Source of the DNA: Ptychodera flava | Taxonomy: Eukaryota; Hemichordata; Enteropneusta; Ptychoderidae | Reading direction: 5' to 3' | Length of the DNA stretch: 64,000 nucleotides | NCBI RefSeq assembly: GCF_041260155.1 | Contig: NC_091935.1 | Span: forward strand, 4,829,501 to 4,893,500 | Shown here: positions 2,461 to 58,400 of the stretch, in pieces | Position numbering within the stretch: the first letter of the stretch is position 1 | Layout of the letters: every line of letters begins with the position of its first letter | Translations under genes and position numbers: made by a program | The notes under the pieces: generated by a model | The model's database searches: none | What the model was told of the DNA's origin: nothing | Seen by the model: the letters and a program-made list of their open reading frames with translations, nothing else

Positions 2461-4356
2461 CACCAAAAACTAATCAGTCTTGCCATTTGCTAACTAAATT
2501 TATGTACCAGATTTGATTCTAATCTAATGAGCTGTTTTTGAGATATACGGCCAACAGATGGATAAATAGACACACAGACATCGCTGCGACATAAGCTCAT
2601 GTATTAACACATGAGCTAAAATGATGCATTTAAATTTGACTATCCTTAGGCTAGGTTCACATACAACGGTTAGTGGGGGCTGGAGGAATCGCGATTGAAA
2701 TTTTATTTTATCTGATCCCCCCCCAAAAAAAAAAATTTCGTAGAGCCACATATTTATTAGGTATGCACTCAAAGAAAAAAAAAACATGTATTTGGCAGTT
2801 CTGCTCAAAGATGTACAACACTGCTTGTTATTAGCATTTGTAGAGCCATATTCCTAAGGCAAGTTCTCTAATATTTAACCACATCAGTGGACTTTTTTGA
2901 TGTATCAGTCCAAGTCAACTTTAGCTAAATCCAACTCTGGCCATGCCAATGGCACCTGCTGAAGAACACACAAAATGACGATCATGAGAGTATGCAAATT
3001 GTGAATTTCTGCATACATTATATGCTTAAAGGTTTTACGAATTGACAATACTGTAAGGTAAAAATATTCTATCAAATAAACGTTTAAATCTCTGACATGT
3101 TTGGTGTAACAATGGTAAATTTGGTAAAATCAAACCAATTAGTCACATTTTTCATATAAATTAGTCTTTACTGAACAAAGTTTTACTTTAATTTGTGTTT
3201 ATTATTTTACTATGAGAATGTGAAAATTTAGAAAATTTAGCATGATAACCCCCATCTTTTTTCTTTGATTATTCTCATATGCCAGAACTCAAAACTCCCT
3301 GATAACTTTCAAGTCTCCTACTCTTCCATGTGCTGCTTTCTGGCCTGATCTTATGTACAAGTATGTTCAACCCTGCCATGAGCGTCACATGACCCAAACT
3401 CTCCTTCAGCTATTTCATAGTCAGAGCTATCTCTGTCACTGCTGGTATGCAGTGACAGTCACACTGTCCATAGGCAGCAGCAGCAGGGCAGGAGCAGTAT
3501 TAACTTTGATAATTCTGACAATAATTTTGTTCAGTTTATACAACTGCATTCTTGCTCTCTTTCCTACAGCATATTGCAATTCGAACTGTCAAGTATTCAG
3601 CTTGCGAACACAGTCTGTGAATATGTATCCTGCATTTGTATCACAGACAAATGACTTTACTCTGGAGTCTATAATTCAATTACCACCAAATATTCACATA
3701 TGCAGGCTTTTGATGACAAACTGAATATTGTGTGTTTCAGCATGCTGTAGGGAGACAGCAAGAACTGTATTTGATATATTGCATAGAAATATTGAAAAAA
3801 TTATCAACAGGTGCAAACAGATGCAGCAGTGCTCCGATACTAATGGGCCTACTTGTTTTTTATGAAAATACATACATGTACAGTGTACATCTTTTCAAGA
3901 CAAAAATAGTGAAATGCGACAAAATGCTTCTAGATCTTGTTTAATTATTGCTAACATTAGAACAATTGGATGACATTAAAATGTTATTCAATTTTCATTG
4001 AATTACCCACCAAACCTTGGAATTGTAAAAAGGGAAGCAAAATATTTTTATATCCCCCTTCAGGCGGAGCAAAATTTTCAAGTCCCCCCTCTACTACCCT
4101 AAAAGTTTTCGACTCCCCCTCATTTTTGTGAACGCAGCCATACACTGCAATGGAAAATGTGCAAATACCATCTTTCTATGCAACTGATTTACTTGTAACA
4201 AGTCATTGACAATGACATAGTCCCTACTTGTAATAGGAGTATTAGTCTTGAGGGGGCAGGGAAATGAGGTCATTAAGAAGTATCACTGGAGTGTATATGT
4301 TCAGATCTATGGACACATAGGTCTATGTCATTGTTCCCAATTTGAAACAAGAGGCA
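2461..4356. other. No gene supported
   Basis: AT-rich DNA with poly-A and poly-C tracts near 2710-2800. The longest open frame (3353-3724, plus strand) has hydrophobic stretches but no family motif, no clear splice signals and ordinary composition. I see nothing else here. Confidence 0.5.
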
Positions 4357-5581: not shown

Positions 5582-5648
5582 AAAAACTGTGTCACTGCAT
5601 CCTTTTTGCAATATGAATACGATGAGAAACTAATTTTTATTTTTCTTG

Positions 5649-5881
5649 GCCTTATACATGGGAGTCTATGTACTGCCTTATACATGGGAGTCTATGGACT
5701 GCCTTATACATGGGAGTCTATGGACTTCCTTATACATGGGAGTCTATGGACTGCCTTATACATGGGAGTTTATGGACTGCCTTATACATGGGAGTCTATG
5801 GTCTGCCTTATACATGGGAGTCTATGGTCTGCCTTATACATGGGAGTCTATGGTCTGCCTTATACATGGGAGTCTATGGAG
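5649..5881. repeat. 26-bp minisatellite, nine copies
   Basis: Nine head-to-tail copies of a 26-bp unit of the form GCCTTATACATGGG plus AGTCTATGGACT. Copies differ at only one or two bases. Because 26 is not a multiple of three and the unit lacks stops, all three plus-strand frames stay open and cycle through the same peptide. These frames are not genes. Confidence 0.95.
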
Positions 5882-6001
5882 GTGAAAACTAAAAGTCCTC
5901 TACCACGGCCAAATTTGATCGCATTGTGAAACAAATCGACGTGCATCTGTATGAGGTATGGTACTATCCTTGTACCAAGTTTGAACGAAATCGCTCCAGG
6001 C

Positions 6002-14924: not shown

Positions 14925-15519
14925 AAAATTGTAGCGCTACGGTGAGGCGGTCGGTGATTTTTGGTTTTTGCGACTTCGCTCACCAGTAGCGCTACAAGGC
15001 CGATGGCCCTGGGGAGTATCATATAAGCGCGTCGTACTCGACCAGGCGTTTTGATGTGGAATGCAACATATTTACTGCATTTGGTCGTACCGATTTATCA
15101 CTACTGAAGACTAACAGTATACTGCACTAACTTTGTCATTTATGGGGTTTGGAATTTGTTCAAACACGACGATCGCGTTCCGAAACATTTCTTGGAGCAG
15201 TCATTACCAACTTCCGGTAATGCGGCTCCCACAAACACCGACGCCCCACGCTCAATGTTTTCAGAACGCGATCGTCGTGTTTGAACAAATTCCAAACCCC
15301 ATAAATGACAAAGTTGGTGCAGTATACTGTTTAGTCTTCAGTAGTGATAAATCGTACGACCAAATGCAGTAAATATGTTGCATTCCACATCAAAACGCCT
15401 GGTCGAGTACGACGCGCTTATATGATACTCCCCAGGGCCATCGGCCTTGTAGCGCTACTGGTGAGCGAAGTCGCAAAAACCAAAAATCACCGACCGCCTC
15501 ACCGTAGCGCTACAATTTT
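14925..15519. mobile_element. ~600-bp near-perfect fold-back element
   Basis: The left arm starts AAAATTGTAGCGCTACGG at 14925 and runs to about 15190. The right arm is its inverse, from about 15252 to ...GTAGCGCTACAATTTT at 15519. Arms of ~265 bp differ at only a few bases and the loop is about 60 bp. There is no coding capacity. The ends are themselves palindromic (GTAGCGCTAC). The right end touches the ATTG-repeat tail of the LINE. No target duplication was found. Confidence 0.9.
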
Positions 15520-18653: not shown

Positions 18654-18750
18654 GGCCGGGCTGTGAGTTGCCGGATACGGCCAGGCCGTATAACACCGGC
18701 GTTATACGGCCAGGCGGTATAACGCCGGTAACTCACAGCCCTGCCCTGCC
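18654..18750. mobile_element. GGCTGTGAGTTGCCGG hairpin element
   Basis: The arms GGGCTGTGAGTTGCCGG and CCGGTAACTCACAGCCC enclose two further inverted copies of the GTATAAC(A/G)CCGG motif, so it can fold in more than one way. Same family as 18303-18411. Confidence 0.75.
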
Positions 18751-20379: not shown

Positions 20380-20382
20380 GGT

Positions 20383-20398
20383 GGCCCTGAAAAGGGCC
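20383..20398 (-). terminator. Histone-type 3' stem-loop, copy 1
   Basis: Minus strand GGCCCTTTTCAGGGCC, then ACC. The six-pair stem, four-base pyrimidine-rich loop and ACC tail match the metazoan histone 3'-end signal bound by SLBP. No purine-rich downstream element is clear in this copy. Confidence 0.75.
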
Positions 20399-20583
20399 GC
20401 TCGGTATGGGTTTTTGTTAGCGCTTGGCGCGTTTATTTTGGCGATGAGCCTATAGCTTTTTTATGCTTCTTTTCGCCGATTCGATGTGCTTGGTAAGTAG
20501 GTGTTTGCCGCCTTCTTGTCACTGTGTGTGTGTACATGGACAGTCTGCATAGCCCTTGAATGTGGTCTCGATTTTGATCAAAC

Positions 20584-20601
20584 CATGGAGGTACCTCCAT
20601 G
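20584..20601. mobile_element. 18-bp perfect palindromic insertion with 7-bp duplication
   Basis: CATGGAGGTACCTCCATG lies between two ATCAAAC copies. The matching place in the second unit (near 39141) has a single ATCAAAC and no palindrome, so this is an insertion. The duplication can also be read as 8 bp (GATCAAAC) with a 17-bp insert. Confidence 0.8.
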
Positions 20602-20684
20602 ATCAAACTTACAATTTAGGAGTATATATCAAAACTGATAAATGATTTATGTTTTCACATGGGTTCACAAAAAGTTTCGCCCCG

Positions 20685-20846
20685 GTGTTCATTTTTGGCC
20701 CAGGAATTCCATCTACCCACCCTTTACAGAGTAGTAAGCTTATGGGGCAAGTAAATATGGATGCGCCAGTGCGATTCAACGATCAACCTCTATATCGCAT
20801 CGAAAGTCAACAATTTTACGGCACGGACTATGATTTTATAAGTTTA
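20685..20846 (+). pseudogene. Short conserved reading frame in the dispersed unit
   Basis: A plus-strand frame encodes HPLQSSKLMGQVNMDAPVRF and then RIESQQF..G.DYDFISLY. Both copies of the unit keep it. Of about nine base differences over ~49 codons, six are silent and most fall in third positions, which suggests past selection on this frame. It may be one exon, since TTCATTTTTGGCCCAG just before it looks like a splice acceptor. The family is not recognised. It runs antisense to the stem-loop. Confidence 0.4.
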
Positions 20847-20848
20847 TA

Positions 20849-20877
20849 CACAGTCCCTCGTGGATAGAGAGACTGTG
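20849..20877. mobile_element. 29-bp hairpin insertion with 7-bp duplication
   Basis: Starts CACAGTCCCTC and ends GAGAGACTGTG, flanked on both sides by GTTTATA. The second unit has one GTTTATA and no insert (near 39379). Related inserts are at 20989 and 37813. Confidence 0.85.
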
Positions 20878-20988
20878 GTTTATATAAAAATTATAAGGCG
20901 CGGGGTATTATATATTGACTGATTACTGTAGCTATAGATAGGCTACATTCAGGACGGGCAGCGACGGGCAGTAATTAGTAGGCAAAAC

Positions 20989-21014
20989 CACGGTCCCTCC
21001 ACAGAGGGACCGTG
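20989..21014. mobile_element. 26-bp hairpin insertion with 7-bp duplication
   Basis: CACGGTCCCTC, a CACA loop, and GAGGGACCGTG: a perfect 11-bp stem. The flanks are GCAAAAC and ACAAAAC; the empty site in the second unit reads ACAAAAC, so one copy has changed by a base. Confidence 0.85.
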
Positions 21015-21135
21015 ACAAAACAGGTGGTTTTCACCGTGGGCAGAACTCGGTGCAATGATACTGAACATTAATAGTAAGCCTGTCACCTTGAAGGTATGCT
21101 GTAGGTGAAACAAGTAAGCTTACTTCAAACGCACG

Positions 21136-21169
21136 ATGGTACAAACATTCCTACCTCCATGGTACAAAC
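21136..21169. repeat. 11-bp duplication around a 12-bp insert
   Basis: ATGGTACAAAC occurs twice with ATTCCTACCTCC between, where the second unit has ATGGTACAAAC once. The insert contains TACCTCC, as in the palindrome at 20584, so it may be a decayed relative. It is not itself a hairpin. Confidence 0.6.
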
Positions 21170-21494
21170 AACACCATAAGTGAAACGTACACATAGAAAT
21201 ACACGCGTTCCTACGTTGTGCCCACCCGGGCCACGCGATTAAAATATGACTGATACTGCTGGATAGTGTTAATTGGGTCGGTAAACAGTCAATTAATAGT
21301 TTAATTGACTACCTGGGTGATTGGCAGGTCGTGTCCAACGACGCATATGCAAAGCAGGCCAAAAGACAAAAGCCCCCAAAGATATTGACAGCTGGCCAGG
21401 GGTCACCATGAATACGTAATGACGCTTCACTACGCAGAAACTGCGTAGTCAAGCCCTTCTTAACCGGTCAAACTCTCTCGGCATTTTCCGGCAT

Positions 21495-21813: not shown

Positions 21814-22118
21814 GCTTTGCTTTCAATTATTTGACCTCCTTTATTATCTGAACTCATTATTTGACCTGCATTTGAACCCTACCCAGAAATCATTGCACAT
21901 GGAGATTCACAATGGCGACGGTCTGTCCCCTCACATAGAGAGAGAAAAGCGGGCTTTGCGTAAGTTTTAAAGTTCAGCTCAGCACATCGCTTATCTAGAA
22001 TGGTTGGGCGTGCTCGAAAACTGAGATCGACCACAATTTTGGATTAAAATCGATTGTTTTCGGCGGCGGAACTGGGCTGTGGTGGGTAGCCGACGGTGGC
22101 CTATAGTAGTATTACACC

Positions 22119-22359
22119 TAGCCCAGCGTACAGGTCTGTGTACCGTGTGTTTTCGGCGTTATATGGCACAGGCCTAAGGAACGTTTCGTAGATCGTCGTC
22201 GGATGGGAAGTGACTAAAACCGAGGTTCGGCCTTCGGCCTCACAGTGTCAGTCACTTCCAATCCAACGACGATCTACGAAACGTTCCGTAGGCCTGTGTT
22301 ATATGGTGGAGGCCGTATAACACCGGAAACACACAAGACCTGTACGTATGCAGGGCTAG
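22119..22359. mobile_element. ~240-bp hairpin with TAGCCC ends
   Basis: Begins TAGCCCAGCGTACAGGTCTG and ends in CAGGGCTAG, with a long inner stem (GGAACGTTTCGTAGATCGTC mirrored by GACGATCTACGAAACGTTCC). TTACACC lies at both edges, a likely target duplication offset by one base. It sits 50 bp left of the 4.6-kb element. Confidence 0.75.
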
Positions 22360-22403: not shown

Positions 22404-22410
22404 GATACCG
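22404..22410. repeat. 7-bp target duplication, left
   Basis: GATACCG directly before the left end of the 4.6-kb element; the same seven bases follow its right end at 26999-27005. Confidence 0.75.
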
Positions 22411-22791
22411 CACAGGTCCAGTAGGCATAATTTGTGATGATTTTTTCCTATTATTATCATAAAAAATAATTATGAATATTAATAAATTATTAATATGAAT
22501 GTTACAGAATATTAAAACTTTTTTACACATGCACAATGTCGTCTACTTTGTGTAAATGCCATCTGGAAACTCCATTGTTTTGATAATTATGATAATTATG
22601 ATTATGATTAATAAAGTCACATTTTACACATTGTAATGTGCATATGTGAACACCCTCTGGAAACCCTCATACTGTTTCACAATCTATGCCAAAATATACA
22701 AGTGACACCATTGCCCAGGTTCAGTCTACGGCGAGAGTTACCATTGCCCAGGTTCAGTCTACGGTGAGAGTTACTACACAGTGTATATAAT

Positions 22792-23668
22792 CAGTCCGGG
22801 TTATGTCCATAGAGAGGATATTACGATTGACCAATCAGCGAACCTACCGCCGCCAACGTCATGAATAATTAACCATGCAAACCTTGGCTCGTACATTGCA
22901 ACGAGTTTGGAACTTTTCGGCTTGATTTCGCCCTTTATTTTTAGCACTGGGTAGTTTTTAGATGTAGACATTACGCAAAATGTTCAGTACGGTCGAGATG
23001 GTGACCGACACAAGTGGTTAGTACATTGAAAATTACTTATTTGGATGAATTTTCTGGCCGGGTACGGCTCCTAGAAATCAGCATTTGACCCTCGTAAATC
23101 TACAGTAAGTTATTTGTCGCCAAATATCGCCTATTTTTGGTCAAATTTCAATTTAACCTTGCCATCTGCAGTATGGAGAATGTTTCAAGCTTTGCAAAGA
23201 TGAGTCAACTGTTTTAGTCGGTCATCGGAGCACGATGGAGCACGATTTTTTCGATCACCATGCGTTGCCCGGTACGATTGACCCTTCGCTCAGAAAAACG
23301 CGCGCCGGATCAATCGCCGAGAAGTTAACCAAAAGCTGGAAAAGAGAGCGAAAAACGTCCAATAACTCTTTGTCGAATATGGTCCAGGGTAAAGAAACTC
23401 AGAAAACCATTTCTGAAGAAATTTTCAATTTTTAACACGGTAGAACGTCGCCAATCGACTGGAGCTAAGATACTTCCGGGTAGCCAACAGTCTCACTCGA
23501 TCGGTGGATCTGTCAGGTCATATCGCGATCTGACCAAAGTGAACCAATGTAACCTTTGACCCTTGTTACATATACAGTACGTGATTGGTTCTTGCCTTAT
23601 TGTCATTACATATACGGTACGCCATTGGGTCTTCCCTACTATCCTCTATATGGACATAACCCGGACTG
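22792..23668. mobile_element. 877-bp element nested in the left arm
   Basis: Ends CAGTCCGGGTTATGTCCATA and TATGGACATAACCCGGACTG are inverse (~28 bp with one mismatch region). ATAAT is present on both sides. The right arm at 26616-26630 keeps the empty site with one ATAAT, which proves insertion after the arms formed. A 66-codon frame at 23235 has no known motif. Confidence 0.85.
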
Positions 23669-24038
23669 ATAATGAGAAGGTAGCCAGCTCCACTCGACAG
23701 TAAACTGACATAACCCATGAATTACCTCCGTTTTCTTCACTTCTGCATGTTGATTCTCACAATATCTCCCGGTGTTGGCAAGTCCATAAATCAGCCATCA
23801 AATTACCCGGTTTTGGCCACTTAGACGGAAAATTTGTGAAGTTTGGGGCTGCGAGAAGGTATATATCGCCAATGAAATGATGCAGTCTTCACGCAATCGA
23901 CAGCATCCGGGATCTTTTAGGGCCGTTTGCGAAATTTGAATGTAGCCGCCAAGCGGGGCCGAGGGCGGAGCCATGATTTAACGTTATTAGATATGCTGAC
24001 ATAATTGATCGTACGGCCAATGAACGCTCGTGACCTTT

Positions 24039-26253
24039 GATTAGACCTCTCATCAGTTGACCCGAATGTACATGTGTCTGATCAACATCAAAACGTGGAA
24101 TGAGTTTCATTTCTCTAGTTGGACGATGTATTTTTCGAACTTTATAGCAGTACTAGTTGTAAGGTAACTCTCCAAAGCAGCTTACTGGGTATGCGATCAA
24201 TGGAGTAGCTTCAGCGAAAAGGGGGACAGCATCAACTGAACAAACACCGCAGTAGGCAGCTCAATATAGATTGCTGCGATCGTGTTTGCCAGCATTATAT
24301 ACACCTTATCCATATTATTTGATGACACCGTCATCAATTACGTCCATTACAAACGTCCAGATGAAATTCCGACGACAGTGAGCACACCGTCATCAACTGT
24401 GACCGACTCCTCTCCCCTCCTCCGCCAAACACCGCGACTAATCCGTAGCAATAAATGTTTCCACTAGCTGTGATATTTGACCGTGGCGGTGACCTTTGAT
24501 TTGAACGCGTTCGCCGCTGCGATATCACAGCTAGGTTTCCACGGTATCCACCTATTCCATAAGAACCTCCGCCATGTGCACATCGTACCCACAAATACCT
24601 TGAATGGCAAGGAACACGACTAACACTTCCAGGATTACAAACGTGCTGACATTTTCTTGCCCGTTCTCGTTTCAAAATTTTAGTGTTTTTTCCATAGACC
24701 CTGCTGCATCCGTGTGTAGCGTCAATTGTTTTTCCCGAAGACAGAAAGTCCTCGCTTCAGTTTCTGAGTGTGATAAAACTGCAGAGCTTCGGTTAGGATT
24801 TCCAAATCTGCGTAAGGCTGTTCGCAAATTGTTTTTCTATTGCGTTAAATGCACCAAAAATGCGTACAACGTGACTACGTGTAAGTACCTATATATAACA
24901 GCTGTCTACGCGATATCGAAAACGGTTCAAAAGTCAATGAAAAAAGTGTTCAATAAACAACATCGGTGACAATGTTTTTTCTTTGATATTAGTTTCACAA
25001 TTTGTTCTGTTCTATTTTCTGTCGACGATTTTCATTTCTTACTAATTATTTAGACTACAACTTCCCACTATTGCCTTCGCTGCCTGACCTATCATCGCTG
25101 CTCTGAAGTCAAATTCACTTAGTCTCGGGCCTTCCATGGTTATCACCATCAGATCATTTAGATCAGGCATAGTCACTTAGACAGCTACGTTTCGATTTTG
25201 TAATCCTGTTTTGGGTACTGAACCCACGCGCTCACACGGGACAGATGAGACTGGAATCACGGCTGCAATTATGGCCATTTTGCAATATCTGGAATAAGTT
25301 TGCAGACCGCATAAAACTATTATTTTTAAGTCTGCGTAGCATTAACTTAAACTTGATATTCGACTAGGAGATCTTCAGGGTTTACAAGTATGCATTGGGC
25401 GCAGCGGAACAAAAAACATTTTTTTGCAATAACGACGAACTCTATTGAACTTGTTACATTTTTATTGGTACAGACTTGAAGGAAAACGTGATTGACAGGA
25501 TGTAGGACAAATATTGCTAAATTATGAACATTTTTATCAGCAAACAATTTATTTTTAGTCCTGGATAAACTTCACATTGGAGGGAAACTACGTGTGCTCA
25601 TGTCTTTATTACAGAGACTGCGCTTTTTAATGCGTATCGGATTATACGCAGACGTCATTTTACTTTGCGTACTTCAAAGTAATAACATGCTTGAAATACG
25701 CAGGATTTTGCGTTAACGGAAGCTCTGTAATAAAACTATTGATAATATTATTAAAATTTAACTTTTTCTCAGTATTTTTTGCAAGACATGGATATATTTG
25801 TCTAACATATTCATAAAAAAGTAACAGGTCCTCGTAACGCCAGCACGCGTACGCCTTTTCAATAAAAAAGATATCGATTTCAAGGTACATTGTCTGTGCT
25901 TTGTCTGTAAAACACGTCCGTGACTGCGTTTTTAATATTTTGTTGGGCAGCAAAATAGACGACAGTCAACGCTGCCTGTATTTTCATTGTAAATCTCTGA
26001 AAATCACAAGTTCAATTGGAAGGTGACTGCGTGTTTGTACGTACGTACGCTGTTTTGAGGTCTCCTTGCCAAGTCGCTGAACTTGACATATTTTCACAAT
26101 GTCAACCGGGTATCTATCATAAACAAACGCATCTGCAACCCGTCATCCGTTTGTAATCACACATACATAGCTTGGACCGTTGACTTGAGGCACCTCCATC
26201 CTCGGACAGACCATGAAGTAATCGTACGTTGTAAATGTAACTTTCATGTGTAA
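24039..26253. other. Centre of the 4.6-kb element, no gene recognised
   Basis: Short open frames on both strands (for example 24604-24969 plus, 25660-25953 minus) show no transposase DDE signature or zinc-finger pattern that I can see. A small inverted-end block lies at about 25606-25736 (TTATTACAGAG and CTCTGTAATAA). Confidence 0.55.
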
Positions 26254-26998
26254 AAAGGTCACGAGCGTTCATTGGCCGTACGATCAATTATGTCAGCATA
26301 TCTAATAACGTTAAATCATGGCTCCGCCCTCGGCCCCGCTTGGCGGCTACATTCAAATTTCGCAAACGGCCCTAAAAGATCCCGGATGCTGTCGATTGCG
26401 TGAAGACTGCATCATTTCATTGGCGATATATACCTTCTCGCAGCCCCAAACTTCACAAGTTTTCCGTCAAGGTGGCCAAAACTTGGTAGATTTGATGGCT
26501 GATTTATGGACTTGCCAACACCGGGAGAAATTTTGAGAATCAACATGCAGAAGTGAAGAAAACGGAGGTAATTCATGGGTATGTCAGTTTACTGTCGAGT
26601 GGAGCTGGCTACCTTCTAATTATATACACTGTGTAGTAACTCTCGCCGTAGACTGAACCTGGGCAATGGTAACTCTTGCCGCAGACTGAACCTTGGCAAT
26701 GGTGTCACTTGTATATTTTGGCATAGATTGTGAAACAGTATGAGGGTTTCCAGAGGGTTGTTCACATAAGCACATTACAATGTGTAAAATATGACTTTAT
26801 TAATCATAATCATAATTATCATAATTATCAAAACAATGGAGTTTCCAGATGGCATTTACACAAAGTAGACGACATTGTGCTTGTGTAAAAAGTTTTATAT
26901 TCTGTAACATTCATATTAATAATTTATTAATATTCATAATTATTTTTTATGATAATAATAGGAAAAAATCATCACAAATTATGCCTACTGGACCTGTG

Positions 26999-27005
26999 GA
27001 TACCG
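26999..27005. repeat. 7-bp target duplication, right
   Basis: GATACCG directly after the right end of the 4.6-kb element. Confidence 0.75.
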
Positions 27006-28235: not shown

Positions 28236-30728
28236 TGGCGTGCCACGTCGGGTCCCGTCTCTTGGAACGATCTGAATTGTAGTCAAATCCAGTTGGACAC
28301 AGTGACCTGAGTAGGCCATACTGACTTTGTTATGCAAATTACAAAGACCGTGCAGTGAAACTTTTCAACGAAGTTTCAATATCTGAACTGACGCACTTGA
28401 ATGATAGGCAAAGGAAATAATGACGCGATAGTGTGCTAAACTTTATTCCCTCAATCTACTTGGTTTTGATATATTTATATGACAAAAGACTTTGTGTAAG
28501 TCTAAGAGAAAAACTGAAACACGATTTATGGAGGGACTGTGATTGACCGCATCAACACGTCAGTGAGTTTGAGTCACTCACTGTCTTGCTTTCCGTAATA
28601 TTTTCTGTCAAATTATTAAGTGACACAATTTTAAAAATGTGACTTCCCTTGCCTTGTGTACTATTTATGATTGTGTCATTAGTGTTTTCGTATTTGTGAG
28701 CAAGGTTTAGAGACCGAGAGTTTTGACTTCGACTGACAGGGAGCCATGCTTGACCGTACAGTGACCGTTTCAACTGACAAGTAAACATCAATCACTTTCA
28801 TTGGTAATTGTCAGAAAATGCCAAAACGGCTCGTGAAAAGTATGATATACAGCTACAGTGTAAGCTACAACTGTGTCAAGTTTGGAAAATTGAAGACAAG
28901 ATAAAACTTCATTTCGCACGAAAAAGCGTCCCAAACACTGACGTGTCGTTTCCTTGATGTGCAATGACGGCTGTCCGGTGACACGGCAAAGCGTTTCATA
29001 AAAAGTCGGACAGTGCTTTCACTGAAACTTCAGCAATAGGTGTTTAGCTGAAGTCAGTGGGAATGGTTATAACTAAAGCTTCTTGGCGATTGGACCGATT
29101 GATCTCTTTGGGATTAATCCTGGCGTCCCTTGAATCAACGTTGGCAGGCTACCATATGATATCAAAATCAAAATAGGAGAGTCGTTTCATTCAATGTATA
29201 GATGTATATCACTGGTGTAAGATCAATGCATTGCTGCTTGCATAGAAATTGTGTGTGGGGCAATAGTTCCTAACAGCTAATCCTTGACGAATATAGCCAT
29301 GGCTTACAAAGCGAAACGTAGGCGCATTCTTCGAAGCAGTGAGTCTTTCAAAAAGCCTTATTTATCATGCTAGACATTCCATCGATGCGCTAAAGTGGCT
29401 TGGGGACAAAATGTACCTGCTAGACTGTAACGCCTTGTCCCCTTCAGAAGATTGCTCCCAATCTAAATCAAAATCAGTGTACCGATTTCAGTATTAAGAC
29501 AAGTGGAGAATTGAGGGTATCAAATGTATGAAAGGATATATGTTCTCCGGAATTGACATTTTCGATTCAATATAAACCTGCGTGGGAGCATCCTAAAGTT
29601 TCCTCCTACAACGTCTTACATACACTAAAGAACCGCATTATTAGTCACTGGCCTGACAAAATAGTACATCTTGAAAGGGAAAGTTCCCGTGAGATTGTAG
29701 TCCTTGAGAATTGGCCCTGTTTCCTCTGTTGGAATACAAAACCCAGGAAAGTTAATTTTCTGTTGAAGTTTGATAGTCTATATCACTTCGCAAGTCGTCT
29801 TTAGAGGAATGTAAACATAAGTTACTACAGCATTATTCGTCGATAAGTTATGAATACGATCAATAAATGTCGTGTATTTAAGTAGGACGACCTGACAATC
29901 TGAAACTGGACTGATCGTTTCAAGTGAGTGATAACTACGATGAGACTTATCTTAGTCGTACAGCAAAGAAAGTACAATAATTTTAAATTATATGCGTCGA
30001 ATATTCCCTACTTGCTCAAAAATTCCTTTGTAAGATAATAAAATCGGTATTTGGGGCGTCTAAGAATATATATCAGAGACAAGGTGACTTGTACGGCCAC
30101 TATATGAAGACTGCATTGGTAGGCGCTTCAAAGATGGTCACTCTGGGAGGTACTCGAGAATTGTCTCGCATACTGGAAAAACTACGTGAGTTCGAGTTTG
30201 ACAGACCTCACAATCTTTCATGAAGGGCAAAGTTATTTTCTTACAGATAAAAATCATCCATTTCCCACCCTATATTCGTGATATTATTTTGACCCACCGC
30301 ACTGAACTTAAATTTAAACATCGTTTACATAGTCAATGTTATGGTTCTGTTTACAGAATAGATTTGAAAATTTAGATTTTTCATGAATATGCACTAAGGT
30401 CAGTGGCCATGACCCCTGACCTGAGTGTTTGATATGCCACCTAACCACTGCTTGCGTATATTCATGGGTACAATCAAGCCTAAATCAAATGTATGTGTTT
30501 GAAAGAAAATCAACTCTATTCAACTGCAAAATTGATTTCCAATGTCTGGTCAACTGAATACCTTGTTTGGCGAATAATTTGTATGGCTTCAAGCCAAATT
30601 TGCTAGAAGATTTTGGAACCCGGGGAAACACTGAGAATTCACTTATCTTTCATCACAAAATTGAAAATAAGTGACACTTTAACAAGTACACTCTAGATAT
30701 TGGTGTCTGTCTGGCCTGACTAATTGCA
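28236..30728. other. No gene supported; one possible start exon
   Basis: The only gene-like sign is ATGGCTTACAAAGCGAAACG at 29299 (MAYKAKRRRILRS), followed by a good GTGAGT donor at about 29339. I could not link it to another exon. The frame at 29553-29804 has no family motif. Confidence 0.4.
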
Positions 30729-32281
30729 GGCATCAGCGTCAACTAATCTATCCAATTTTCAACAGATATAGACTTAATAAAAATCATAGGACATACAGCA
30801 ACGAGGTGAGTAGTGTTTTTCTTGAATTGGGTCACCCTTGTTTGTTTGTTGTATTCACAGTTGCTATGAGTTTCAGGTTGTATTTTCTTTGTCCTTATTC
30901 AAGATGTATGAATGATGTTGAAAGCACCACGCCTCACTTTGACAATTGATAAAAGACCACTCCCATTATTCAAGCTTTGTGTTGATGATATCGATGAAAC
31001 ACTGAACCTCAGTTTCCTTCAGGTCAAAAGAACACAATCTTATTCAAGAGTCTTTATTGGTGTGAAAAACACCGAACCAAGGTACGTGCAGGAATGTTTG
31101 TTTGGCTTAGTGACAAGTTACCTTGGCTGGTTCATCCGAATGCCAGAACACAAACATACTAGGTGAGTACAAGGAAAAACGCCCTCTGGAGTCCATCCAA
31201 GTCCCAAACTCGACAAGTGTGATCATCACTGACACTGGCAATTTGTTGACCTTCTGTTGGTTCAAAGACAACATCATTGACATAACTTGTGTGACCATCC
31301 ATTACCTGAAAACAAAAAGGAAAAGCTGTCAAACTGTCAGAGTTTGAAGCAGTTACCCGAATGATATAAATTCACTTTTTTTGAAAATATCCTTTTGTTA
31401 GTCTTGTGAAAGCTATCAACTAATTCACAGTATGCGCTGATTTGATGTGATGAGACAATTTCACCATGCCAGTAGTAATACATATATTGATGGAGATAGG
31501 CAATCAGTTAATTTACGGGATAGGATGACAAATCAGTGAAAATAAATTGAACTGCTTGTTCTGCAATGTTGACCAGTAATATTTCATTGAAGTAAATTTC
31601 AAGATTTGAGATAAGATTTTTGTTTTAAAATAGACATTTCTGTCTTCATATGACATATTGTGCTGCACTTACTGTTTTCTTTCCAAAGGAAATATGACCC
31701 ATGTGATACCGCATGAACCTGAGTTTGAAGAAAATAATCATTATAAGAAAAAATATCACAACAGTGAAAACATGTTAAATACATTTTGTCATGAACTATG
31801 GGAGAAATAGTGAGCCTGTATATCTGCGTGTCGGCATTCGGATGAAACAGCCAAGGTAATGTGTCACTGAGCCAAACAAACATTCCTGTACGTACTTTGG
31901 TTTGGTATTTTCCACAGGAATAAAAAAATGAAAGATCTGGAATAAGATTGTGTTCTTTTGACCTGAAGGAAACTGAGGTTCAGTGTTTCATCGATATCAT
32001 CAACACAAAGCTTGAATAATGGGAGTGGTCTTTTATCAATTGTCAAAGTGAGGCGTGGTGCTTTCAACATCATTCATACATCTTGAATAAGGACAAAGCT
32101 GTCCCTACCCCTAATAAAACACAATCTGAAACTCTTAGCAACTGTAAATACAGCAAACAAACAAGGGTGACCCAATTCCAGAAAAACATTACTGATAGAC
32201 TCACTCCGTTGCTGAATGTCCTATGATTTTTATTAAGTCTATATCTGTTGAATTTGGATAGATTAGTTGACGCTGATGCCT
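30729..32281. repeat. Inverted duplication, ~430-bp arms
   Basis: The left arm 30729-31150 and right arm 31826-32281 are inverse and mostly alike, starting from GCATCAGCGTCAACTAATCT. The spacer of 675 bp holds most of a NUP37-like exon, whose last ~30 bases lie inside the left arm and are copied in the right arm. Both arms keep a frame beginning MMLKAPRLTLTIDKRPLPLF, flanked by splice-like signals (TTATTCAAG before, GTACGT after). Its family is unknown and an in-frame stop precedes its ATG. Confidence 0.85.
31122..31305 (-). pseudogene. NUP37-like WD40 exon fragment
   Basis: Minus-strand exon with acceptor TTTTGTTTTCAG and donor GTAACT. It encodes GHTSYVNDVVFEPTEGQQ, then IASVSDDHTCRVWDLDG, then (in another frame) LYSPSMFVFWHSDEPAK. 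From memory this follows vertebrate NUP37, a WD40 scaffold protein of the nuclear pore Y-complex (EGQEIASVSDDHTCR and HSPGMSVCWHPEE). The two halves are in different frames, with a one-base shift around a T run near 31180. No other NUP37 exon is visible nearby, so it looks like an isolated broken copy; a sequencing error in a live gene is the alternative. Confidence 0.7.
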
Positions 32282-37542: not shown

Positions 37543-37812
37543 GGTAGTCGATTTTAGAATCGTAGACAGTATAGCGAGATATAAAAAATGTGAAAGAGGC
37601 TCCCCACCTAACTATCCTAAATGTTTTTGTGTCGAGTTTGTGTTTGATTCGTTTCGAAAATGTGTTCCTACATTCTTATCCGATTGTTTGTGTTAATGAA
37701 ATGTTTTTTACGCTTCGAGTATTTGTATGGAAGTTTGGATTAGTGTGTACGGCAATGTTTTGTTTGTGTGGGGAAAGCTTATGGCGAGACGCAGTCGGAC
37801 CTATGGTCTGAC

Positions 37813-37834
37813 CACAGTCCCTCTATCCACAGTG
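37813..37834. mobile_element. 22-bp hairpin insertion with 7-bp duplication
   Basis: Starts CACAGTCCCTCTATCCA and ends CAGTG, flanked exactly by GTCTGAC on both sides (37806-37812 and 37835-37841). The CACAGTCCCTC start matches the inserts at 20849 and, with one change, 20989. No empty-site copy is available here. Confidence 0.7.
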
Positions 37835-37984
37835 GTCTGACAAAGTTGATAGAGTGGCCCTTTGACGCTTGCGTTTCGAAAACCGAATGTGGTTTCTCTT
37901 CAGTCTCAGTGTAGATTCTTCTCTTAGTTTGTGTCTGTGAAAATTTATTTAAATGCATTTTAGTGGTCTTGCTCTTCGATTAGC

Positions 37985-38760
37985 GAGGCAAGTATATTAA
38001 TTTTGGTCACGTTGTGAGTCCGTTTGGAGGTTCGCTTTGTTCGTTCTATTTTTCTTTACTTCGGTAATTTTGTTTTGACTGGTGTGTCTTTTAGATTTTT
38101 GCGGAGGTTTGTGAATTTTTAGGCAATAAGTACCACTGCGGGGTACGGATTTTATGTTTATTGGATCAAGATACTTACAAGTATCCTGGTTGATGTGCTT
38201 GTTCTCGTACATTTTGATTAATAGTTCGTTTACTTTGTTTACTGTTTGTTCTGGCTTGTTGTGTATAATACTGAGTGTTGCGTAATTGCCTTTCGCATTC
38301 GAGTACGTAATCGTTTGTGTTGACAATGACGAAAACCCGACCCTTGTCGAAGGTTTTTTTTTCCGTAATTTGTCTATTGTTTGCAAGCTGGTTTATCGCG
38401 ATTCTTTTGGCACGCGACATGTTTGTTTTGTTGTTTGAAAGGGCATCTCTAGAAGTGCGAGTTCAGCAGCTTCAGATAGCTTTCAAGTTTTTGGATGTTG
38501 TTCGGGAGTCCAATTTGACTTTTTCTTTGATTTGGTGTTGTTGCGATTGTTTGTGTCTCATGATGTAGCGTAGTCACATTATACGACTTTATTTGTTGAA
38601 ATCCTGAGGTGGTTTATTCTGTTTGGTTTTGTTGGTGTCCGAATGAATTTTAAGGCTTTTGCCTAGTACTATTTTCGGAGTTTCATAGTTTGAACGATGA
38701 TAGGTTCTTGCTGAATTTCATGTTGTTGTCGGCTTTTCTTTGGAAATAGCCGATTTATTT
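37985..38760 (-). mobile_element. Fragment of a Penelope-like retroelement
   Basis: Minus-strand frames give LGKSLKIHSDTNKTKQ, MSRAKRIAINQLANNRQI, FDKGRVFVIVNTNDYVLECE and NELLIKMYENKHINQDTCKY, then PRSGTYCLKIHKPP. Their order matches the region before and at the start of the Penelope-like reverse transcriptase (DKG...V...Y, then the LPKIHKP motif). The rest of the polymerase and the GIY-YIG endonuclease are missing and the frame is broken more than once. It lies just past the 3' end of the stem-loop unit at 38937. Confidence 0.7.
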
Positions 38761-38936: not shown

Positions 38937-39719
38937 GGTGGCCCTGAAAAGGGCCGCTTGGTATGGGTTTTTGTTAGCGCTTGGCGCGTTTGTTTTGGCG
39001 ATGAGCCTAGCTTTTTTATGCTTCTTTTCGCCGATTCGATGTGCTTGGTGAGTAGGTGTTTCCCGCCTTCTTGTCACTGTGTGTGCGTACATGGACAGTC
39101 TGCATAGCCCTCGAATGTCACTGTGGTCTCGATTTTGATCAAACTGACAATTTAGGAGTATATAACAAAACTGATAAATGATTTATGTTTTCACATGGAT
39201 TCACAAAAAGTTTCGCCCGGTGTTCATTTTTGGCCCAGAGGAATTCCATCTACCCACCCTTTGCAGAGTAGTAAGCTAATGGGGCAAGTAAACATGGATG
39301 CGCCGGTGCGATTCAACGATCAGCCTGTATATCGGATCGAAAGTCAACAATTTTGCGGCTCGGACTATGATTTTATAAGTTTATATAAAAAGTATAAGGC
39401 GCGGGGTATTATATATTGACTGATTACTGTATAGGCTACATTCAGGAGGGGCAGCGACGGGCAGTAATTAGTAGACAAAACAGGTGGTTTTCACCATGGG
39501 CAGAACTCGGTGCCATGATACTGAACATTAATAGTAAGCCTGTCACCTTGAAGGTAATACTGTAGGTGACACGAGGATTTCAAACGCACGATGGTACAAA
39601 CAACACCACAAGTGAAACGTACACATAGAAATACACGCGTTCCTACGTTGTGCCCACCCGGGCCACGCGATTAAAATATGACTGATACTGCTGGAGTGTT
39701 AATTGGGTCGGTAAACAGT
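38937..39719 (-). mobile_element. Dispersed unit with histone-type 3' stem-loop, copy 2
   Basis: Matches 20380-21289 end to end, from ACTGTTTACCGACCC (39719) to the stem-loop and ACC. It lacks the short palindromic inserts of copy 1 and so serves as the empty-site reference. It contains the conserved frame HPLQSSKLMGQVNMDAPVRF (about 39256-39400, plus strand). Confidence 0.7.
38940..38955 (-). terminator. Histone-type 3' stem-loop, copy 2
   Basis: GGCCCTTTTCAGGGCC then ACC on the minus strand, identical to copy 1. A purine-rich stretch follows downstream. Confidence 0.75.
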
Positions 39720-39870
39720 AAAAAATGAGAGTTCGAACATTCAAAATGCGATATACGAATCTAAAATACTATATTGGAATCCAAATGAGAGTTGCAAAGT
39801 TGAAAATGCGGTGTATGAATCAAAATTGCGATATACGAATCCAAAATTGGAGTTCGAATTTTGGCCTGGA
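39720..39870. repeat. Short ~60-bp direct repeats
   Basis: GAGAGTTCGAACATTCAAAATGC- and GAGAGTTGCAAAGTTGAAAATGC-like phrases with GCGATATACGAATC repeat two to three times. Confidence 0.55.
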
Positions 39871-51837: not shown

Positions 51838-52060
51838 AGTTGTTTGGGTATCAGACTCACTGTCGGAGGACAGTCAGTTCGACACCCCTAGGTCCGGAGT
51901 AATGGTCTCAGTCTCAAAGAATAGTGAGTTCGAGACTCCAGCACAGTGACATGTCCCTGAGCAAGGCAGTCTACTCCTCATTGCTCCACTGGGTAGTGGG
52001 TTGTGGTTACCTCATCCTGTAATTGGGCTCGCCTGTTGGATGAGTAATAAAAGGAAAAAA
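51838..52060 (+). mobile_element. tRNA-derived SINE
   Basis: The head GGGGCAGTTGTTTGGGTATC fits a degenerate A box. Two B-box-like stretches follow: CAGTTCGACACCC and GAGTTCGAGACTCC. The body has CCCTGAGCAAGGCAGTCTAC and CATTGCTCCACT, a phrase seen in many animal SINEs, and the tail is A-rich (AATAAAAGGAAAAAAAG). It is transcribed by RNA polymerase III in its family. It lies 340 bp past the end of the large extracellular gene. Confidence 0.75.
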
Positions 52061-52487: not shown

Positions 52488-55400
52488 CTTTTGCTTTAGG
52501 AAGAAACAAAACAAATTAAAGACAAAACACAAGATTTTATAAGGTTAAGGCGGTGACGAAACTGTGTGCTGGGTGAATACATCAATCAGTTTTGTCGTGG
52601 AATGTAAAAATGCTCATATTTCTACTATAATTTATCTGACCGGCATACTGCAAGTTTTATCGAAGTTAAAGTTATTGAATTAATAAAAAAAGTATCCTTT
52701 GTAAGGAAACCCAGTGATACATCGAAATATATGATAGTATTATCTTTTCTGTCAAACATAATTTGCTCATTTTATATTAAAAGATGACATCGTATTATTT
52801 TCAATTTTTCATGACCGTTGTCATGGAAACTTAAAGATCTTACAGACACAAAGAATTACCACCATTTAATTTTAATGACCTCATTCTTGAAAGTAAAAAA
52901 ATGCAGATAACAATAATTGTCTGGGATTATTCATTTTACTTTCATATCAGCATTGGCTTCGGATCCATTGCCCTATAATTCTAAAGCAATCATTTAACCT
53001 GAACTGCGATATCTTCTGAAAAATTGGCATCTGCGAAAAGGCTTGGTGAGATTCAAGTTAATTTGTATATACCGATACAATGTATAACTTATTCTCTTTG
53101 CCAAAAACTGGTCTGAACTACACGTACCTTGATGTCGCTAAGGCCAATCCAGTATGGGTAGCGATTATCTCTTGCCGTGACTGTTGCCAGGACAACTGCA
53201 TGCTTACCCTCATTGCCGTACTTGATCAATGAACCACTGAACTCCGCGCAAAAACACTGCGCATCCTGCCATTCGTACCTAGATGCGCTGACACAGATTG
53301 TAACCGGCCCGATGTCAAAGATATCGCGACAAGCAGAAGATCCTTGAAAGTAAAAAATGTTGTATGCTATAATAAAATCTATTAAGTCCAATCTTGAGTA
53401 AAATGTTAGGCTTTATGGTAAACTTTCGCAGTAACAGCCTGAGTGTTCCTAATGAGTTCTACAGCTCACAGATATCTTCAGTCAAGTACACATGGGTATT
53501 GCAAGGCTGACCGTAGCTTATGCCAACTAAAAGGTTCTGGCCTTTACTGTTGTTTAATTGCAATCATGCACGTAGCTTTATTCTTTAGCGAAAGTGAAAT
53601 GTCGATATCAACTCAAATGTCAAGTTCAACGAGATTTAGCAGGGTGAATACGTTTGTGAGTTGGAAAGCTATTCTAACAATTTAGTTGAAGTGGTATATT
53701 CATTAATAAATTAGCAAGTGACAAGATGTCCTCGCAATTTTGTTATGAATACAGTTTTCATATCAACCGTCGCCGTCCTTAAGAATTTCGATGAAAGTCT
53801 TACTTTATTAAAAGAAATCGCCAGCGGTGAAGCGTACCTGAAAATTCCGGATTCGGTGTCGGCTGCCATTCTCCGTCTTCACATGTCAGTGATGAATAAT
53901 CAGGGTCTTGAAATGCGAGGCTGCATCGCACTCCTACTGTTTCATTATGTCGGGTAAGATTCTGCCCCACCACCATGTGCCATTCGATAAATCCCAAACC
54001 GATGGTAATATACAGGATGCTTTAAAATTACATGAACATCATCAGAACAATACAAGTCTTGCTTTGCGTCAGGCCATTGCATTAATTTGCTATTGTAGTG
54101 TAAAATTGTGTATGTGCGATATGACTGATACCAAAAAGTGAGATTTACATAATGATATAGTTTTTGCGATTTTCATTTTGTTCAAAATTGAATCCGTGAC
54201 TTTTACACAGGTAAAAACGTTGGGGGCGCTTTGTCTTCGGAATACTTGCAAAATAACAGGAGTGAATCTCTTTATACATGTTTCATGGTTTGTCGTACAG
54301 CGATTCCAAGAGACTCCTATTTTACAGCGATGAATGTAAAGAGAAACGCCACGGGGTATTATCCATAATAACAAGGATGTTTTGCTATTTCATTTTCAAG
54401 GTGAATGCGCGATAATGTAACTGAGAACGTACAGGCGCGTGCTTGCTGGCCACAGACAAAGTGGTGCCAGGATAATTCAAATAAGTTTTATTGAGTTCTA
54501 AAATGCTTTAGGTCCTCTTAATCTGTAACAGTGCATCTGAGTTTATGTACACGATGCCTTCACCTAAAGGTCTGGTGAAATGCCCATGTTGCAAAATCAC
54601 AGAAATACAGTTGATGGTCTATAAAACAGTTACATTCATTTCTTTTTTCGTTTAGCGCGCGTGATTATGAAATATGGCAAAAAAAAAATGCAATGTGGGC
54701 GTGTCCCCCGAGCCTCTCCAGTCGACTTTTTTCGGCTTTCCGAAGTTTGCCCGACTCCGTATCTCATAACGGGAAGTAAGTATTTCACACGTCCGTAAGC
54801 TCCCCACGGGGGGTAACTTCTAGGGTTTCCGCTTACATGGTCAGGACAGTGTCCTCCTTCACTATGGGAAGACGTTGTTCTTTTGGTGGCTGTGACAGCG
54901 GCAAGAGCATGAACGGCTCAACTGTAAACTTTCTCAGTGTTGAGTGTTTGAACCATAATGTGCTTGTCTCTTCTGGTTCATACGATCGGCCACGGTCCCT
55001 CGGCTGAGCCTGCCTAGCTACTCGCTACACAGAAGGTTGGGACCGTAATGCAAATCAACTGCATGGACACCAACACTGAACGTTGTGACTGCCACTTATA
55101 AAATGCACTAGTCTGAACGTCGGGACCGCAATGCAAATCAACAGTAACTTAAAACGTAAATGGGACAGTGATTAAAATGAACTACAACACGGAAGGTTGG
55201 GACCGCGATGCAAATCAGCTGCATGAACAGCAACACTGAACGTTGACCATTAAAACGAACAACAACACGGAACGTAGAGATCGCGATACAAATCATGAAG
55301 ATAGAGTCCTCCCTGATACAAATCGACAGCAACACGTAACGCGTCGTTGAGACGGCGATTAAATTGACTGAATTGAAGAACACTGAGAACAACGGGGAAT

Positions 55401-58400
55401 ACCGGATCACGAGGACTGGACCGCGATGCAAATCGACCCTCAACATGGAATTAAATGCACAACACAGAACATCTAGACCGCAATGTAATCAACTGCAACA
55501 CCGAACCTTGTTGCCTCGATTAAAAGCGTATGTCTGCTATGTATAGCAAAAGTTTCAATTCTCGCGAGCGAGCGTTCCTATGCCTGCTGTACACTAGCCC
55601 TGCGTACGATGCTGTGTGTTCTGCTACAGCTAAATGTGGTGAGCGGGGCGATTAGCTGTAGCGGAACACACAGCATCGTACGCAGGGCTAGCTGTACACC
55701 AGACAAAATTACGTCAAATTTATCGCGAGGGCTCGATTGCGTTGTCAAGTTTCAATTCTCGCGAGAGTCATTTATGCATGTTGTACACTAGACTAAATGA
55801 CGTCAAATCTCTCGCGAGACTTGGCTCGATGTACGACGGAAATAACGCAATAATACGGAAGTAGACACAGTATTTGTGAATCGCCGAGAGAGAAGCGCAG
55901 ATTAAACAAAAGACTAAAAATCCACGTTTTTTCTTTATTTTACCATATTTTTGAAACAAAAATCAGTTTCGCCACTGTGGCGAATTAGGATCGATTTTTT
56001 TCGCCACTTCGGATTTCGATTCGCATTGGCGAACGAACGTGGCGAATGGGCAGCACGGGGTACGAACACTGAGGCTGTTTTGTTAGCGGATACCGGGCAG
56101 AGATAAGGCGGCGTTGGACCGCTATTCGATGTAAATGAACACACCTGTGACGTCACAGACGGCCAACCATGATCCCCGCTGCGGGCGTGACCTGAGTGTC
56201 GCAAAATGACCCCATGAAAGCCGTGCATAGAAATATCAAAAAAATTAACACTTGCGCGTACTTTTAGGTTGCAATTATGTTGCGAGTGTAATAGTATTGA
56301 CCCCCTGGAAGATATTCAGTCACATGAACGGGACCATTTCACCAGACCTCTAAATGACCCAGAGCATGGGTTTAAACAGAGTTCTGATCAAAGCACCGTC
56401 CCTTTGAAATAAAAAAATGCAAACTTCAAAGCAGAAATAGGCAAAGAGACTGAGATACGCAGAGACGCGTAGAAGTACAGACCAACCTTTAGACTCGGGA
56501 CTGGGTGTGTCCAATATCCGTTTATACAGTGACTCGATGCCTCTCCGAACATGATCCGATATAAACCACCTCTCTGATCAGTGTCACACTTAAAAGTCTG
56601 ATATCCTTTATGGAACGGGTTTCCGGTAACAGTGCCGTCGTCGATAAAACCAAGATAAGTGCAGTCTTGCAGATTAAGGGAAACATTGAAAGTTCAAGAT
56701 TACGAACACTTATGTGAATTCTTCAATAAAGAGTATATTATACTCTAAGTTTATGATCGGTAGCTGGTAAACTCATTTCAATATAACATTAATGCAGACC
56801 AAATAATCAGTATCGTTCAAAGTAAATAAATAACTTATCAGATCCGAGAAACAAAGGGGAATAACAATAACAACAGGGTCATCTTAAGTTAATAGTCTTA
56901 AGCCAAGCAAACCACAATTTACCGTTTATCATTTGAAAGAAATTCATACTTTGATTATACAATGGAAATATCAAGCTGAAATCGTTAATGATGTTTAATT
57001 TTGGAGATGTAATGCGACAAACACCACTTTCGGGCAAGCAGCGTTTCGTAAGCTTGTTGCTTACTGGTAGACTGAATATAACTGACAGTATTTTATCATT
57101 TTAATATGTTCAAAACAGCCAATCAGCCATATATAGTATACATGCTATAGTTTTAGACTCCTTAAGTTGACCTTCACAGCCGCCGCACATTTGCCGACCA
57201 CTGTCAAAAAATGTTAAAACTTACTGCACACTCCTGGCCATATTTTGCATGGCTTTGTTTCCGTTGCATGGCCAATGCACTGCCTACCTCCATCGGCGGG
57301 AACAGGTCACGTCGCATTTCCTGGAGCGCATGCGTACGTCCCAAATGCAATGATCCTGACAACTGCTCCATGGCGACCACTTTCCCCATCCGCCATCTTT
57401 ATTGAAAGAGCAAATAAACAATTACAAACAAATGACATTGGAAAGGTCATTCAGGACTTCAAAACTCACCACTTTCTCTGTCATGAAATACATTGTTCCA
57501 CTTTGCATTCAATGATGTTGTTGACTGTTGATATCCACCTCCCACATCGATTCTGGAATTTGTTATGACAGGAGCACTTGTATCGATTGTTACCCCACTT
57601 GAAACTGCTTCAGTTGACAATCCAACGAAGTCAATACCTGGTTTCGTCGACGTACAAAGAGAAAAAAAGTGAGGCACTATGTAATTTATAACAGGCGCTG
57701 CGTTACATAGGATGAGCAGGCATTGACAACACATCGGACTTTGCTCATTTTAATTCTTATATTAAAATTTTTAGACTAATATTATAATAGATAATGTAGC
57801 ATAAGCATCCTTACGCAAAATGTTTTTTCTTCTTGCAGCGTGAATTTCCAAATCATTCACTTTAGTTTCATGTGTAACAGTAAATGCTACATTCACTTCT
57901 CTTTATGCCTACATATTTCATGTATTCAGTAAATGTAACATCTACTGCAATGGTATTTACCTCTCACTGTAGCATAGTAAGTATGTCCAGCTTGTAACGT
58001 CGATACATGTAAGTAGACCCAATTAGCAATACCAACGTCCTGGAAATCATGAACATCAAGCCCACCTGGGTATGTCCCTGCAATGATACATTAAATGTAA
58101 TAAGTATCAGATTAACAACATCACGAGGACCTACATTACCATTCCATGAAGAATAGGATTCGCTGGGCTCGGGTTCTATTTTATACGTCAAAATTAGTTT
58201 TTTTAACCATGCTAAAGATAACCCAATGCCATCTTTTCACAAAGTCGAACAATATGTTAGTTCACGACACCTTGATTGCTCGATTGATTCTCATAAATGC
58301 AATCTCACAAAGGGTTTTTCGTTTCAATTGCATATCCGACTAAGTTGGATTCTGTAAGGTTTTTGCCCTTTTCAAATCGACTGACTAAGTTAAGTTAACA

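Follow-up and report, generated by a model that had tools for sequence, protein, structure and literature searches.

Short inserts with inverted ends between 7-bp repeats in Ptychodera flava DNA: probable excision footprints of P-superfamily-like transposons

Five inserts of 16–29 bp, found in a 64,000-nucleotide stretch of Ptychodera flava DNA (the window, that is, the whole stretch analysed), are probably excision footprints of P-superfamily-like DNA transposons. In each of the five, both copies of the target are kept and inverted end sequence lies between them, and for four the corresponding empty site is present in a second copy of the same dispersed unit (Table 1). The middle of each insert would consist of transposon end sequence, judging from its letters. 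The footprint reading is preferred because one of the ends appears to have been cut back differently from insert to insert, as excision repair leaves it.

Table 1. Positions of the inserts, the two copies of the dispersed unit and the neighbouring 4588-bp element within the window. Slashes separate the segments into which an insert was dissected.
Feature	Position	Left repeat	Insert or element ends	Right repeat	Relation to the dispersed unit
Insert 1	20577..20608	ATCAAAC	CATGGAGGTACCTCCATG (20584-20601, 18 bp)	ATCAAAC	empty site in copy 2 near 39136
Insert 2	20842..20884	GTTTATA	CACAGTCCCTC / GTGGATAGAGAGACTGTG (20849-20877, 29 bp)	GTTTATA	empty site in copy 2 near 39379
Insert 3	20982..21021	GCAAAAC	CACGGTCCCTC / CAC / AGAGGGACCGTG (20989-21014, 26 bp)	ACAAAAC	empty site in copy 2 near 39474
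Insert 4	21139..21168	GTACAAA	CATTCCTACCTCCATG = CAT / TCC / TACCTCCATG (21146-21161, 16 bp)	GTACAAA	empty site in copy 2 near 39591
Insert 5	37806..37841	GTCTGAC	CACAGTCCCTCTATCCACAGTG = CACAGTCCCTCTATCCAC / A / GTG (37813-37834, 22 bp)	GTCTGAC	outside the dispersed unit
Dispersed unit, copy 1	20380-21290				carries inserts 1-4
Dispersed unit, copy 2	38937-39722				provides four empty sites
4588-bp element	22411-26998	GATACCG (22404-22410)	CACAGGTCC...GGACCTGTG	GATACCG (26999-27005)	

The alignment of copy 1 with copy 2 contains 746 identical and 29 different positions (3.7%) together with 13 indels, one of which lies at the alignment edge. Nine of these indels measure 1–8 bp; the four that reach at least 10 bp are all gains of copy 1, have CA...TG ends and adjoin a 7-bp target duplication, and at these four sites copy 2 carries a single target copy without an insert. 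Three of them, the 18-, 29- and 26-bp inserts, had been described in the initial annotation, and all three are present at the places and between the repeats given there, with copy 2 offering the empty site that had been claimed for each. The number of inserts was raised from three to five by a scan that required a 7-bp repeat and CA..TG ends, so that for the added 16-mer and 22-mer both properties are search conditions and not results; in the 18-, 26- and 29-mers, the insert ends are set by the palindrome itself. No empty copy of the 22-mer site was found within the 64-kb window. The left edge of copy 2 is overlapped by a histone 3' UTR stem-loop (RF00032, 38915-38960, - strand); the same letters are present in copy 1 but were not reported there at the gathering score, and inspection of the two copies by eye revealed no reading frame resembling a histone.

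Given CA..TG ends, the target duplication reads as 7 bp in all five inserts, one repeat carrying a substitution. The exact repeats taken raw measure 9 bp (18-mer), 7 bp (29-mer), 9 bp (22-mer) and 12 bp (16-mer), and the longer ones resolve to 7 bp under CA..TG ends because the end bases agree with the flanking sequence, whether accidentally or through a target preference. The repeat to the left of the 26-mer is GCAAAAC, whereas the right-hand repeat and copy 2 both have ACAAAAC, a mismatch best explained by one substitution in the left repeat. The earlier proposal that a single kind of enzyme was at work and not random repair is likewise supported. Random templated insertion at staggered double-strand breaks, with no transposon involved, is judged extremely improbable: polymerase theta is described as making short templated inserts in the available part of one study (PMC5466332), but such a process would not be expected to duplicate 7 bp at sites for which an empty copy exists, nor to place one 18-nt sequence in inserts 17 kb apart.

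Comparison of the inserts with one another revealed two types of end. The start of the 22-mer, CACAGTCCCTCTATCCAC, matches the reverse complement of the end of the 29-mer over 18 nt, 17 of them identical, after which the two diverge; on the opposite side, the 29-mer retains 11 nt of the end and the 22-mer only GTG. A different end of 10 nt, CATGGAGGTA, is common to the 18-mer and the 16-mer. When at most one mismatch per side was allowed, the 29-mer was dissected into 11 nt plus 18 nt (the latter with one mismatch) joined bluntly, the 22-mer into 18 nt, 1 nt of filler and 3 nt (GTG), and the 26-mer into 11 nt, CAC and 12 nt, with one mismatch per side to the CACAG end, the 26-mer having G in place of A at the fourth base. 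The 18-mer consists of 10 nt and 10 nt of one end with a 2-bp TA overlap, and the 16-mer of CAT, 3 nt of filler and 10 nt. The five junctions therefore comprise one blunt join, one with a 2-bp overlap and three with 1–3 nt of filler, and the 26-mer and the 16-mer contain 3 unexplained nt apiece. With zero mismatches allowed, the right remnant of the 29-mer shortens to 7 nt and the remnants of the 26-mer to 3 nt on each side.

These differences in composition bear on the interpretation first given to the inserts, namely that they are ultra-short MITEs, hairpins of 16–29 bp mobile in trans through a transposase that produces 7-bp TSDs. The members of a MITE family share sequence from end to end and carry two complete ends. 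Like MITEs, the inserts have inverted ends, a TSD and no coding capacity, and a TSD of fixed length is indeed read, at 7 bp, subject to the search condition and the raw repeat lengths given above. Three of them are palindromic with CA...TG ends and 7-bp TSDs, and four are absent from copy 2. However, they are not copies of one hairpin: end-to-end identity and two complete TIRs are lacking, the ends of each insert being truncated differently, lengths range from 16 to 29 bp, there are two end types, and one end is truncated differently on opposite sides. Moreover, the 16-mer and the 22-mer are barely palindromic, with pairing at 3 of 8 positions in the former and 6 of 11 in the latter, and two transposase sites within 16–29 bp could hardly be synapsed. 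The interpretation as mobile elements is not supported and is considered very unlikely. A full-text search for ultra-short or smallest MITEs returned, among the matches listed, no title on transposons.

The sequence of events proposed for the footprints would begin with insertion into copy 1 and duplication of the target, which reads as 7 bp and is backed by an empty copy at four sites. The inserted elements are presumed to have been longer, ending in CACRGTCCCTCTATCCAC... or CATGGAGGTA..., and the junctions suggest that a transposase would have cut one strand about 18 nt inside each end, so that the excised site would retain both target copies and one single-stranded tail per end. Host end joining may then have trimmed the tails and closed the gap bluntly, through microhomology or with filler, yielding a near-palindrome of 16–29 bp. 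While insertion with target duplication, the shared ends and the classes of junction are observed directly, this route of repair is deduced from those classes, and the longer parent, the internal cut and a P-type enzyme are likewise what the scars would imply.

A precedent is provided by the P element of Drosophila. According to the available parts of the relevant reports, its transposase cleaves one strand 17 bp within the inverted repeat and thereby generates 17-nt 3' tails (PMC7776569), and after excision in end-joining flies lacking RAD51 the two target copies are separated by at most 17 nt from either end (PMC5466332, Tables 1-2). The P{wa} junctions described there were joined bluntly, by microhomology or by filler (PMC5466332), and the inserts reported here resemble them both in the retention of target copies with inverted ends between them and in the classes of join. 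The Drosophila P end, too, begins with CATG. Unlike in Drosophila P, the TSD is 7 bp and not 8 bp, and the tail is read as 18 nt and not 17 nt; furthermore, the Drosophila scars come from laboratory work on RAD51-deficient flies, whereas the present inserts are natural and have other end sequences. In Table 1 of the same study, 14 of 34 control isolates retain just 5–8 nt (PMC5466332), a class of remnant that is absent among the five inserts.

The apparent limit of 18 nt requires a qualification of its own. Two inserts match over 18 nt and then diverge, but since the reference ends were themselves derived from the inserts, longer remnants would be undetectable, and the ceiling, being the point at which these two cease to match, is partly circular. 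Alternatively, the inserts could be internally deleted remnants of an abortive gap repair in which just the outermost parts of the element were copied back, with no direct end joining. Defective copies of this kind are described for P-superfamily elements in the available passages of two papers (PMC1562414, PMC4168063), but such repair would be expected to stop at random and mostly to leave larger remnants, and all five inserts total only 16–29 bp; the 18-nt limit also opposes it, though it rests on two inserts. Abortive gap repair is regarded as a very unlikely origin.

Other members of the P superfamily offer partial parallels, as far as the available passages on them describe. In Galileo, the TSD is usually 7 bp, with 8 bp in three copies (PMC4168063). 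The inserts share this 7-bp TSD, and the neighbouring 4588-bp element has long TIRs, as Galileo does (PMC4168063, PMC2775673, PMC3688188). Unlike in Galileo, the target consensus GTANTAC is not found among the TSDs here, and the Galileo passages in these three papers describe no excision scars. The P-element MITEs of Anopheles gambiae (PMC1562414) and zebrafish Pdre2 (PMC10983969), being non-coding or short, model what the parents could be, and Pdre2 begins with CA as the inserts do (PMC10983969); they differ from the inserts in their 8-bp TSDs, their length of at least 205 bp and their ends (PMC1562414, PMC10983969). In a cell assay, excision by zebrafish THAP9 gave larger flank deletions and not neat scars (PMC10983969), which would count against a simple extension of P scars to other animals.

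The footprints might instead have been left by a non-P transposase whose cut likewise lies well within the element ends, such as one from an undescribed group with 7-bp TSDs. For such footprints to arise, it is enough that the enzyme cuts internally and inserts with a 7-bp stagger, and the 64-kb window showed no P-type (THAP) transposase. On the other hand, the 7-bp TSDs fit Galileo (PMC4168063), and of the three groups compared, P, hAT and MULE, only P is described in the passages available as cutting about 17 nt inside. The scars of the hAT element TcBuster are small indels ascribed to flanking hairpins (PMC3499496), and hAT footprints were rejected because those indels are flank-derived. 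The MULE Muta1 is reported to excise precisely in about 90% of cases, its cut being suggested to lie outside the TIR (PMC5225508), and MULE footprints were rejected in view of this mostly precise excision. A non-P source is considered unlikely, and a P-superfamily-like one remains the preferred reading.

No parent element with either type of end was detected in the 64-kb window by TSD and TIR scans. One candidate considered, the 4588-bp element (Table 1), lies 1.1 kb past copy 1, has a 7-bp TSD and CACAG ends, and carries TIRs of about 745 bp that are 97% identical. It was rejected as the parent because it has only the first five bases, CACAG, in common with the footprint end CACAGTCCCTC. It combines the 7-bp TSD and long TIRs characteristic of Galileo; however, all 23 of its ORFs of at least 55 aa were scanned, and neither a Pfam match at the curated cut-off nor a THAP domain was obtained, the best match being to DUF1796 (E 0.0097, below the curated cut-off). 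The THAP transposase that would place it with Galileo is thus missing, as it would likewise be from a non-autonomous member. Neither the 18-nt end nor the end of the 4.6-kb element had any match when viral contigs were scanned (0 matches each). A full-text search for the end sequences returned, among the matches listed, no title on DNA transposons, the matching letters probably belonging to primers, and in the mostly open-access literature no title or abstract opening among the matches listed describes such inserts.

Several further inverted-repeat sequences were noted in the window. The left TIR of the 4588-bp element is interrupted by an 877-bp insertion (22792-23668), which by eye has inverted ends CAGTCCGGGTTATG... 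and a 5-bp repeat ATAAT; the corresponding empty site is present in the right TIR. A 132-bp MITE (22167-22298) has CACAGGCC ends (CACAGGCCTA) and an 8-bp repeat, TTATATGG. A 98-bp near-perfect hairpin (55594-55691) has 40-nt arms, CTAGCCCTGCG ends and flanking repeats of 7 or 9 bp, and ends like its own surround the 132-bp MITE near 22110-22355. In addition, a 567-bp inverted-repeat element (14939-15505) contains TAGCGCTA motifs at two nested positions. By its content the window is animal-like eukaryotic DNA: besides the histone stem-loop, it includes two matches to C-type lectins and the relic of a reverse transcriptase.

The frequency with which such arrangements arise by chance was estimated from dinucleotide shuffles. 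In the 64-kb window minus a 26-bp tandem array (5623-5934), which mimics 7-bp-repeat inserts in the scans, CA..TG inserts of 14–33 bp between exact k-bp repeats numbered 10, 2, 4, 3, 0 and 0 for k=5 to 10, against means of 8.98, 2.30, 0.57, 0.18, 0.04 and 0.01 in 200 shuffles. At k=7, the shuffle maximum was 3, and the four matches observed all belong to the five inserts, the 26-mer alone dropping out of this exact count because its left repeat carries the substitution. At k=8, two of the three matches lie within a tandem repeat of the 4.6-kb element and the third is 55294-55315. Hairpins whose arms reached at least 6/7 were counted separately, a single mismatch between the repeats being tolerated from k=6 up. 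At k=7 there were 4 (three of the inserts and 31330-31346), where 100 shuffles averaged 0.41 and never exceeded 3; the one hairpin at k=8 (23400-23415) compares with a shuffle mean of 0.09. By themselves, these scan totals are modest and only suggestive. The case is made by stronger evidence, the empty sites and the terminal sequence that the inserts have in common, which together with the shuffle counts speaks against chance.

Several other scan matches were left uncounted. These include 31330-31346, which is probably a chance match, 23400-23415, the k=6 CA..TG matches at 3695 and 51373, a 44-bp insert at 51876 and a 47-bp insert at 38377, as well as matches within the 5623-5934 tandem array and the 22722-22766 repeat. 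The uncounted k=8 match at 55294-55315, CATGAAGATAGAGTCCTCCCTG flanked by exact 8-bp repeats ATACAAAT, may be due to chance or represent another type of footprint. A scan without the CA..TG condition also yielded, at 18680-18715, a 22-bp palindrome, CGTATAACACCGGCGTTATACG, with CG...CG ends and 7-bp repeats GCCAGGC, nested in a larger palindrome and likewise uncounted. Each of the 11-nt ends CACAGTCCCTC and CACGGTCCCTC also occurs as a single exact copy, at 28541 (-) and 54991 (+); these copies were rejected as further footprints and kept outside all counts, having no 7-bp repeat on reading, and are possibly decayed or one-sided footprints.

The distribution of the inserts is uneven. Four of the five lie within 911 of the 64,000 bp, for which uniform placement gives a probability of about 2e-7, a figure that is overstated, the region having been indicated beforehand and copy 2 having helped detection. 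If the footprint reading is right, four scars with at least two types of end in a 0.9-kb unit, as against one more detected in the rest of the 64 kb, would point to an insertion hot spot. One of the targets sits, by eye, in a TATA-like stretch. P insertions are described as frequent around promoters in the available part of one paper (PMC7776569), and the likeness of the two is only suggestive. It is also conceivable, though we attach only a faint likelihood to it, that a transposase with a 7-bp stagger inserts bare end fragments of 16–29 nt, in the form of hairpins freed by earlier excisions, which would spread as micro-insertions and gather at hot spots like copy 1.

If the inserts are indeed the excision footprints of P-superfamily-like transposons, at least four rounds of insertion and excision, involving at least two types of end, would have taken place in one unit during 3.7% divergence. 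Both the position of the transposase cut, about 18 nt inside the end, and the 7-bp stagger would then be readable from scars in one assembly, with no protein at hand. Such scars would provide evidence that the long internal cut of the Drosophila P transposase exists in other elements too, and annotators would be warned that short palindromic sequences flanked by 7-bp repeats may represent scars and not tiny MITEs.
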